From Staphylococcus sp. 17KM0847 (lineage in GTDB: Bacteria > Bacillota > Bacilli > Staphylococcales > Staphylococcaceae): a DNA stretch of 64,000 nucleotides. The notes under the pieces are model-generated. The model was not told the DNA's origin and did not search any database. It saw nothing but the letters and a program-made list of their open reading frames with translations. The translations under genes were made by a program, and so were the position numbers. Positions 40,804 through 42,681 of this stretch are shown here, one piece after another. Each line of letters opens with the position of its first letter. The first letter of the stretch is position 1. The stretch spans positions 992,001 to 1,056,000 of the forward strand of contig NZ_CP040781.1 of the NCBI RefSeq assembly GCF_013463155.1, written 5' to 3'.

Positions 40804-42681
40804 ATGGATGTACGAACGATACAAGATCCTTCATTCTTAAAAAGTCTTTCTGTTAAAGAGCTAGAATCGCTCAGCCAAGATGTGCGTCAATTTTTAATTG
40901 AAACTTGTGCAATCACAGGTGGACATATTGGTGCAAACCTCGGTGTCGTAGAACTTACAATTGCTTTGCACAAACACTACAATAGTCCAGAAGATAAGAT
41001 TATTTGGGATGTCGGTCATCAAAGTTATATTCATAAAATCTTAACAGGGCGTGCAAATCAGTTTGACACATTAAGACAATATAAAGGATTATGTGGATTT
41101 CCAAAATTAAGAGAATCTGAACACGACGTATGGGAAGCAGGTCATAGTTCTACATCGCTCTCAGCTGCAATGGGTATGGCAAAAGCGCGTGATATTCTCG
41201 GTAAAACAAATCAAATTATACCCGTAATTGGCGATGGCGCACTTACAGGTGGCATGGCATTAGAAGCGTTAAATAATATTGGGCATGATCATACGAATAT
41301 GACTATCATCTTAAATGACAACGAAATGAGCATAGCACCTAATGTAGGTGCCATGCATAACATGCTAGGGCGTATACGTATGAATCAAGGATACAATCGT
41401 CTAAAAGTAGATGCGGAAACAGTACTGAATCGTCTGCCGGGGGGGAGTCGATTGCGTGAATCTGCTGACCGCATTAAAGATAGTTTGAAATATCTTGTTG
41501 TAGACGGTGCTTTTTTTGAGGAGTTAGGTATCCGTTATATCGGTCCAGTAGATGGTCATAATTATGATGAGCTTGAGCATGCACTAACAACAGCGGATTC
41601 TATTAACAAACCGGTATTAATACATGTTGTCACTAAAAAAGGGAAAGGCTATCATCCCGCTGAAAATGATAAAATTGGAACTTGGCACGGTTTAGGACCT
41701 TATAAGCTCGATACAGGTGAGCAAATTAAAGGTCAACAGCAAGGCCCTTCGTGGAGCCAATTAATGTCTGACGAAATCTTATCCTATGCACAAAAAGACA
41801 AGCGTGTTGTAGCCATTACACCTGCAATGCCCGTAGGATCTAAATTAACAAAGTTTCAGCAAGCACTACCCGAACAATTTTTTGATGTAGGGATTGCAGA
41901 ACAACATGCTGTTACGATGGCAGCTGGTTTTGCAATTGAAGGTATGAAACCTTATGTAGCCATTTACTCTACATTTTTACAACGTGCATACGATCAAGTG
42001 TTACACGATGTCGATCGCCAAAACCTCAATGTTATTTTTGGTGTTGACCGTGCCGGTTTAGTGGGTGCTGATGGCGAAACACATCAAGGTGTTTTTGATG
42101 TAGGCTTTTTAACACAATTTCCAAATATGATTGTAATGATGCCTAAAGATGAAAATGAAGCAAAAGATATGGTGTATACAGCCATGCATTATGAGCAAGG
42201 GCCTATTGCAATTAGATATCCTCGTGGCAATGGCTTAGGTGTTCCAATGACACCAGAACGTCAACACTTACCAATAGGTTCGTGGACACAGCTGACAGAA
42301 GGTTCAGACTTAGCAATCATTAGCTATGGTCCCACTATTGAAACACTTAAAAAAGTAGTGGCTGGATTGAAGGAAACGAATATCCAAGCGACACTCATTA
42401 ATGCACGTTATATTAAACCGATGGATACAGATTTGTTGCATACACTTGGAAAAAGAGGAATACCTATCTTAACAGTCGAAGAAAGTATGCTTAATGGTGG
42501 ACTGGGGAGTCAAATCAGTAATTTTATGTCTGATTCTGCTTATCATAATCCTATTAAGCGTTTAGGCATTGATGATATGTATATCGAACATGGTAATGTT
42601 GAACAAATCTTAGCTGATATTGGTTTGGATAGCCAATCTATTCAACATACAGCAGAACAGTTTCTAAAAGATTGTAATTAA
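40804..42681 (+). CDS. dxs: 1-deoxy-D-xylulose-5-phosphate synthase
   Basis: First committed enzyme of the MEP pathway: joins pyruvate and glyceraldehyde 3-phosphate with TPP. 625 aa, transketolase-like: CAITGGHIGANLGVVELT, WDVGHQSYIHKILTGR, the TPP motif GDGALTGGMALEALNN...NDNEMSI, catalytic Glu in VGIAEQHAVTMAAG and DRAGLVGADGETHQG. ATG after AAGGGTGAT. Follows ispA as in Bacillus (ispA-dxs), but the tlyA-like gene usual between dxs and argR is missing. Terminator and separate argR promoter follow. Not found in S. aureus. Confidence 0.97.
   Translation: MDVRTIQDPSFLKSLSVKELESLSQDVRQFLIETCAITGGHIGANLGVVELTIALHKHYNSPEDKIIWDVGHQSYIHKILTGRANQFDTLRQYKGLCGFPKLRESEHDVWEAGHSSTSLSAAMGMAKARDILGKTNQIIPVIGDGALTGGMALEALNNIGHDHTNMTIILNDNEMSIAPNVGAMHNMLGRIRMNQGYNRLKVDAETVLNRLPGGSRLRESADRIKDSLKYLVVDGAFFEELGIRYIGPVDGHNYDELEHALTTADSINKPVLIHVVTKKGKGYHPAENDKIGTWHGLGPYKLDTGEQIKGQQQGPSWSQLMSDEILSYAQKDKRVVAITPAMPVGSKLTKFQQALPEQFFDVGIAEQHAVTMAAGFAIEGMKPYVAIYSTFLQRAYDQVLHDVDRQNLNVIFGVDRAGLVGADGETHQGVFDVGFLTQFPNMIVMMPKDENEAKDMVYTAMHYEQGPIAIRYPRGNGLGVPMTPERQHLPIGSWTQLTEGSDLAIISYGPTIETLKKVVAGLKETNIQATLINARYIKPMDTDLLHTLGKRGIPILTVEESMLNGGLGSQISNFMSDSAYHNPIKRLGIDDMYIEHGNVEQILADIGLDSQSIQHTAEQFLKDCN

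Follow-up and report, generated by a model that had tools for sequence, protein, structure and literature searches.

The division of the genus Staphylococcus between the MEP (non-mevalonate) and mevalonate routes to isoprenoids is already known, having been published in 2016 by Misic et al., who scored 29 species and showed killing by fosmidomycin (PMC5040788). In that paper, Staphylococcus pseudintermedius and Staphylococcus schleiferi carry a complete non-mevalonate gene set, dispersed on the chromosome, and no mevalonate genes, and fosmidomycin inhibits them from 0.5 and kills them at 4 to 16 μg/ml. The DXR of S. schleiferi was characterized in a 2020 paper (PMC7297381). Another relevant system is found in Listeria, for which PMC13001223 describes an incomplete MEP route beside the mevalonate pathway, ending at MEcDP, with Enterococcus and some Streptococcus as possible further cases. 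Pathway choice in staphylococci sets the vulnerability to Dxr inhibitors such as fosmidomycin and tracks species group.

In this study, we analyzed a dxs gene in a 64,000-nt stretch of the chromosome of Staphylococcus sp. 17KM0847 (hereafter, the window), together with the genome of the strain (G000, a single contig of 1.99 Mb). As described for S. pseudintermedius and S. schleiferi in PMC5040788, this genome has a complete and dispersed MEP set and no match for mvaD or mvaS above cut-off; killing by fosmidomycin has been shown for those two species and is predicted for our strain, another member of their species group. The explanation that best accounts for the data as a whole, with a probability of about 0.96, is that the window carries an inherited chromosomal dxs in a Staphylococcus with a complete MEP pathway and no mvaD or mvaS above cut-off. 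A census of the genus takes the published split from 29 species to 84 genomes with no exception. This main result is confirmatory and is outweighed by the persistence of an orphan ispE in mevalonate staphylococci, which deserves a bench test.

The dxs reading frame, at positions 40804–42681 of the window on the forward strand, is open and complete and encodes 625 residues. The product scored 887.3 bits over residues 5–620 against the NCBIfam equivalog TIGR00204 (cut-off, 465.95 bits), and solved DXS structures aligned with it over almost its full length, the best being 2o1s (566 bits), versus 132 bits for a split transketolase half and at most 66 bits for ordinary transketolases. Direct reading of the protein located the stretch GDGALTGG...NDN, which we take to be TPP-binding, and the stretch AEQHAVT. 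Judged by family membership, the product is a full-length Dxs with a predicted DXP-forming activity, in agreement with the earlier note, which had described a full-length dxs with TPP and catalytic motifs following ispA.

The genes around dxs, named by recognition, are ordered xseB–ispA–dxs–argR–recN, with an xseA-like gene also located upstream. The first gene of this conserved block, xseB (exonuclease VII small subunit; 39650–39874, forward strand), is also seen in related loci and overlaps ispA (polyprenyl, or farnesyl, diphosphate synthase; 39855–40736, forward strand), which likewise lies beside dxs in related loci. Given that only 67 nt separate the end of ispA from dxs, dxs is probably transcribed together with xseB and ispA. 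The transcript probably ends at an intrinsic-terminator-like hairpin behind dxs (42688–42722, forward strand) that has 13 pairs and one bulge and is followed by six T residues (−20 kcal/mol, z = −6.1; none of 200 shuffles was as good), although a simple consensus terminator scanner did not list it. The conserved partner of dxs in related loci, argR/ahrC (arginine repressor; 42829–43290, forward strand), is listed with a GTG start, an inner ATG at 42838 being possible, and the dxs–argR gap in the window is 147 nt, too short for a tlyA-sized reading frame. Elsewhere in the window, a glycine riboswitch aptamer was recognized at 27244–27340 (forward strand, 74.4 bits), and positions 56369–56427 (reverse strand) match the Staphylococcus sRNA family sau-5949 (60.6 bits).

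All seven MEP genes (dxs, dxr, ispD, ispE, ispF, ispG, and ispH) are present in the genome of the strain: dxr is flanked by cdsA- and rseP-like genes, ispE by veg- and purR-like genes, and ispD and ispF adjoin each other. The window itself includes, both on the reverse strand, ispH (lytB), encoding the last MEP enzyme (7812–8801; PF02401, 284.5 bits; match at G000:C1:999926-1000774), between nif3-like and cshB-like genes, and ispG (gcpE), encoding the sixth (13864–15021; PF04551, 503.1 bits; match at G000:C1:1005912-1006940), between a zur-like gene and sodA; the real start of each is probably an inner ATG. One ispD-like paralogue occurs besides the true ispD. Of the five mevalonate genes mvaS, mvaA, mvaK1, mvaD, and mvaK2, two served as markers, mvaD and mvaS, and neither gave a match above cut-off (best, 18.3 bits against 171.35 for mvaD and 35.6 bits against 360.35 for mvaS); the sole cross-match in the mvaD search falls in ispE. 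With these two markers, no mevalonate gene was detected in the strain, which carries the MEP set in full, and the proposal that it relies on MEP rather than mevalonate, for which dxr, ispD, ispE, and ispF were to be sought, is borne out.

Dxs would convert pyruvate and glyceraldehyde-3-phosphate, with thiamine diphosphate, into 1-deoxyxylulose-5-phosphate, from which Dxr, IspD, IspE, IspF, IspG, and IspH would produce IPP and DMAPP, and IspA, encoded beside dxs, would convert these into farnesyl diphosphate. Isoprenoids of this strain are likely made as in S. pseudintermedius and S. schleiferi, and sensitivity to fosmidomycin is predicted by analogy with the published behavior of those species. 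The product of Dxs is also the shared precursor of thiamine, which would fit a strain that uses both pathways or a Dxs that serves thiamine (thiazole) synthesis only. A Staphylococcus ancestor with both pathways has been proposed (PMC7297381). We nevertheless regard both readings as very improbable, considering that no mvaD or mvaS match in the genome exceeds its cut-off, that the six later MEP genes are all present, and that dxs and mvaD occur together in none of the 84 genomes of the census. Because the six downstream genes are present, thiamine supply would be at most a second use of DXP.

The census comprised 84 Staphylococcus genomes, one per species. We found dxs in 22 of them (1089–1429 bits, 76–100% identity), the best match among the other 62 being a partial one of 148 bits. 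Each of dxr, ispD, ispF, ispG, and ispH was over cut-off in the identical set of 22 genomes, and mvaD exceeded its cut-off in precisely the remaining 62: dxs and mvaD are mutually exclusive, with no genome holding both and none holding neither. Likewise, mvaS was over cut-off in none of the 22 MEP staphylococci and in all nine of the 62 mevalonate genomes in which it was searched. G034 and G035 gave dxr matches of 20.6 bits, and G003, G049, G075, and G076 gave weak gcpE matches; all of these were below cut-off and were set aside. The ispF of G058 (G058:C1:2312532-2312994) appears as two overlapping matches with stops, and that of G041 (G041:C1:1538528-1538926) matches from model position 22, the first 21 positions being absent; these defects reflect either sequencing error or decay. 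G043 is the outlier of the 22 as the most diverged and deepest MEP staphylococcus, with a Dxs 76% identical to that of the window and a long IspE branch. In two mevalonate genomes, a second, partial mvaS-like reading frame (129 residues, the C-terminal third) accompanies the full mvaS (G004:C1:37078-37440 and G078:C1:49037-49399); such fragments ride on SCC elements.

The origin of dxs was addressed with a tree of 55 rows (the window and 54 chosen from 101 Dxs loci), built by a quick method without bootstraps. All 28 staphylococcal rows form a single clade (SH-aLRT 99), which joins Macrococcus/Macrococcoides (85, not starred), next Salinicoccus, and then other Bacilli, and the whole family is supported at 100. 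The Dxs of the window groups with those of S. rostri, S. microti, and S. americanisciuri (88, 87, and 85% identity, respectively) within a starred set of nine rows. These are members of the Hyicus-Intermedius species group, as named in PMC13322412, and the strain is placed with them by its nearest Dxs relatives. The earlier claim that dxs places the species holds down to the group of S. rostri, S. microti, and S. americanisciuri and no finer. A record titled Arthrobacter beigongshangensis (L078) has a Dxs and a gene order that fall among Bacilli and is probably mislabelled or mixed. Viral contigs gave two pattern matches and no Dxs relative.

Wherever the contigs extend far enough, Staphylococcus, Macrococcus, and Salinicoccus share the order xseB–ispA–dxs–argR–recN; argR lies downstream of dxs in 21 of the 22 dxs-bearing staphylococci, and the remaining locus (L101) stops short of it. 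In comparison with the Bacillus-type block ispA–dxs–tlyA–argR–recN, the three genera share genes and order, but Staphylococcus is without the tlyA-like reading frame between dxs and argR, whereas Macrococcus and Salinicoccus have it: in all seven of their loci, this interval holds an open stretch of 263–281 codons of the TlyA type, as judged by recognition. A search of the staphylococcal dxs–argR gaps yielded no relative of this stretch (best E, 0.16). Our data agree here with the proposal of a retained ancestral order that has lost a tlyA-like gene. Two of the staphylococcal gaps are long, 731 nt in L085 (G073) and 1174 nt in L093 (G041), and are likewise without a tlyA relative, their longest open stretches being 72 and 94 codons, respectively.

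The branching of the Dxs tree matches that of the organisms (Staphylococcus, Macrococcus, and Salinicoccus), so that dxs was likely inherited vertically from the family ancestor. The tree called for in the earlier note groups the gene with Staphylococcaceae, and no distant donor appears in it. Import of dxs into the lineage from such a donor, e.g., along with other MEP genes, is to our mind close to negligible. A similar order occurs in other Bacilli (in some of their loci ispA and dxs lie at least 1.3 kb further apart), so that order alone would leave room for exchange among close relatives, and no positive evidence for import was found; against it stand the tree that tracks the organisms, the same neighbor genes in Macrococcus and Salinicoccus, the dispersal of the MEP genes across the chromosome, and the empty sites of mevalonate species, which sit in the same backbone.

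These empty sites were examined in four mevalonate genomes at two to four of the positions of dxs, dxr, ispG, and ispH. Measured from match to match, ispA–argR spans 411 nt in G004 and 2092 nt in the window, cdsA–rseP 225 nt in G004 and 1152 nt in the genome of our strain, zur–sodA 286 nt in G004 and 1657 nt in the window, and nif3–cshB 116 nt in G004 and 1273 nt in the window. G018 and G080 showed the same pattern at three sites each, as did G062 at both of the sites compared. At the sites examined in these four genomes, the backbone otherwise matches, and the MEP genes are gone from it. No relics of dxs, dxr, ispG, or ispH exceeded shuffled sequence in the empty sites of G004, the one genome searched: 13, 38, 49, and 34 of 60 shuffles, respectively, equalled or surpassed the real score.

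Since all ten further genomes of the family and order in our class sample (seven other Staphylococcaceae and three of the same order) have dxr and none has mvaS over cut-off, the MEP route is probably ancestral and the mevalonate route a later arrival. The mevalonate route would have taken over in the 62 staphylococci, with the loss of six of the seven MEP genes and the retention of ispE; this direction of replacement is the probable one. In an IspE tree covering 49 of the 84 genomes, the MEP and mevalonate states require one change (support 92, not starred), with the long row of G043 insecurely placed. This one-step split is compatible with either a gain of the mevalonate route on the branch of the 62 only or a common Staphylococcus ancestor that had both routes, each branch then losing one, an idea published in PMC7297381. 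We consider the latter history possible and the less probable of the two: both routes occur together in none of the 84 genomes, and the ten relatives all have dxr without mvaS, so that it needs one gain and two losses close together.

According to PMC5040788, S. aureus, S. epidermidis, and S. lugdunensis retain IspD and IspE. With regard to IspD, our census differs: the best ispD match in the 62 mevalonate genomes, at 168.4 bits, falls short of the cut-off of 181.3 bits. IspD-like proteins that score below cut-off do occur in mevalonate genomes (e.g., G004, G018, and G026), with two such paralogues in some of them, G004 included. TarI is the ribitol-phosphate paralogue of IspD. Because no mevalonate genome reaches the cut-off, the reported IspD is probably such a TarI-type paralogue rather than IspD.

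By contrast with the six other MEP genes, ispE (TIGR00154; cut-off, 138.7 bits) is over cut-off in all 84 genomes at 276–309 bits, including the 62 that are without the other six. Mevalonate staphylococci resemble Listeria and, possibly, Enterococcus and some Streptococcus, as portrayed in PMC13001223, in keeping a part of the MEP route beside the mevalonate pathway, but the Listeria route extends to MEcDP, whereas the staphylococci keep ispE alone and have no MEP gene that makes the substrate of IspE or uses its product. Within the open-licence literature available in part, no published explanation for the orphan ispE was found.

We aligned 49 IspE proteins, 16 from the 22 MEP and 33 from the 62 mevalonate genomes (loci L166-L195, L234, and L236-L253), and found 103 of 282 positions invariant. 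Lys9, Asn11, His25, and Asp135, whose roles we take to be those in E. coli IspE, are kept in all 33 mevalonate rows, as are the GSGP motif and most of the glycine-rich loop; position 24 is Tyr in 18 of these rows and Phe in 15. Six positions separate the MEP from the mevalonate group without overlap. When a mevalonate-type IspE was used as the query, solved IspE enzymes were the first matches. For ispE, 28 mevalonate pairs had a median dN/dS of 0.054 (range, 0–0.118) and nine MEP pairs one of 0.040 (range, 0.025–0.052), all of them close and non-independent pairs. In the 33 mevalonate staphylococci, ispE is intact and the purifying selection on it almost matches that in the MEP species, and the low ratio argues against mere drift. 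The surroundings of the gene are also conserved: purR lies within 600 nt after ispE in all 49 loci and veg within 600 nt before it in 40.

The orphan state extends beyond the genus. Among the 398 genomes of the class sample, ispE was above cut-off in 369 and dxr in 339. The 59 genomes without dxr comprise 20 of Staphylococcus, all with ispE, and 39 others, obtained by eye as the set difference of two listings, of which 14 have ispE (E-values of 1e-76 or lower) and 25 do not, 23 of the latter belonging to one genus and two to another. In 38 of the 39, mvaS was over cut-off. The exception, G124, an assembly of about 280 contigs, has ispE but no match over cut-off for dxr or mvaS; it was excluded from the orphan count, leaving 13 mevalonate genomes in six further families of Bacilli with ispE and no dxr (the two MEP genes searched in this sample).

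This distribution makes ispE the one MEP gene repeatedly kept by mevalonate Bacilli and a second role directly testable. In our estimation, the odds are even that IspE in Bacilli also has a second role, independent of isoprenoids. Its kinase might act on another small molecule, e.g., another CDP-alcohol, or IspE might serve the veg–ispE–purR cluster in some other way. Arguing against a second role, ispE is not indispensable in general, because 25 mevalonate genomes are without it, and the gene could be kept as a passenger by its position before purR. Four genomes (G097, G151, G313, and G413) have dxr with ispE below cut-off, and single absences may therefore be failures of assembly or model. 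The other 25 sampled genomes of genus g33 (family f27) are without dxr, and one member of that genus, G128, carries both dxr and ispE.
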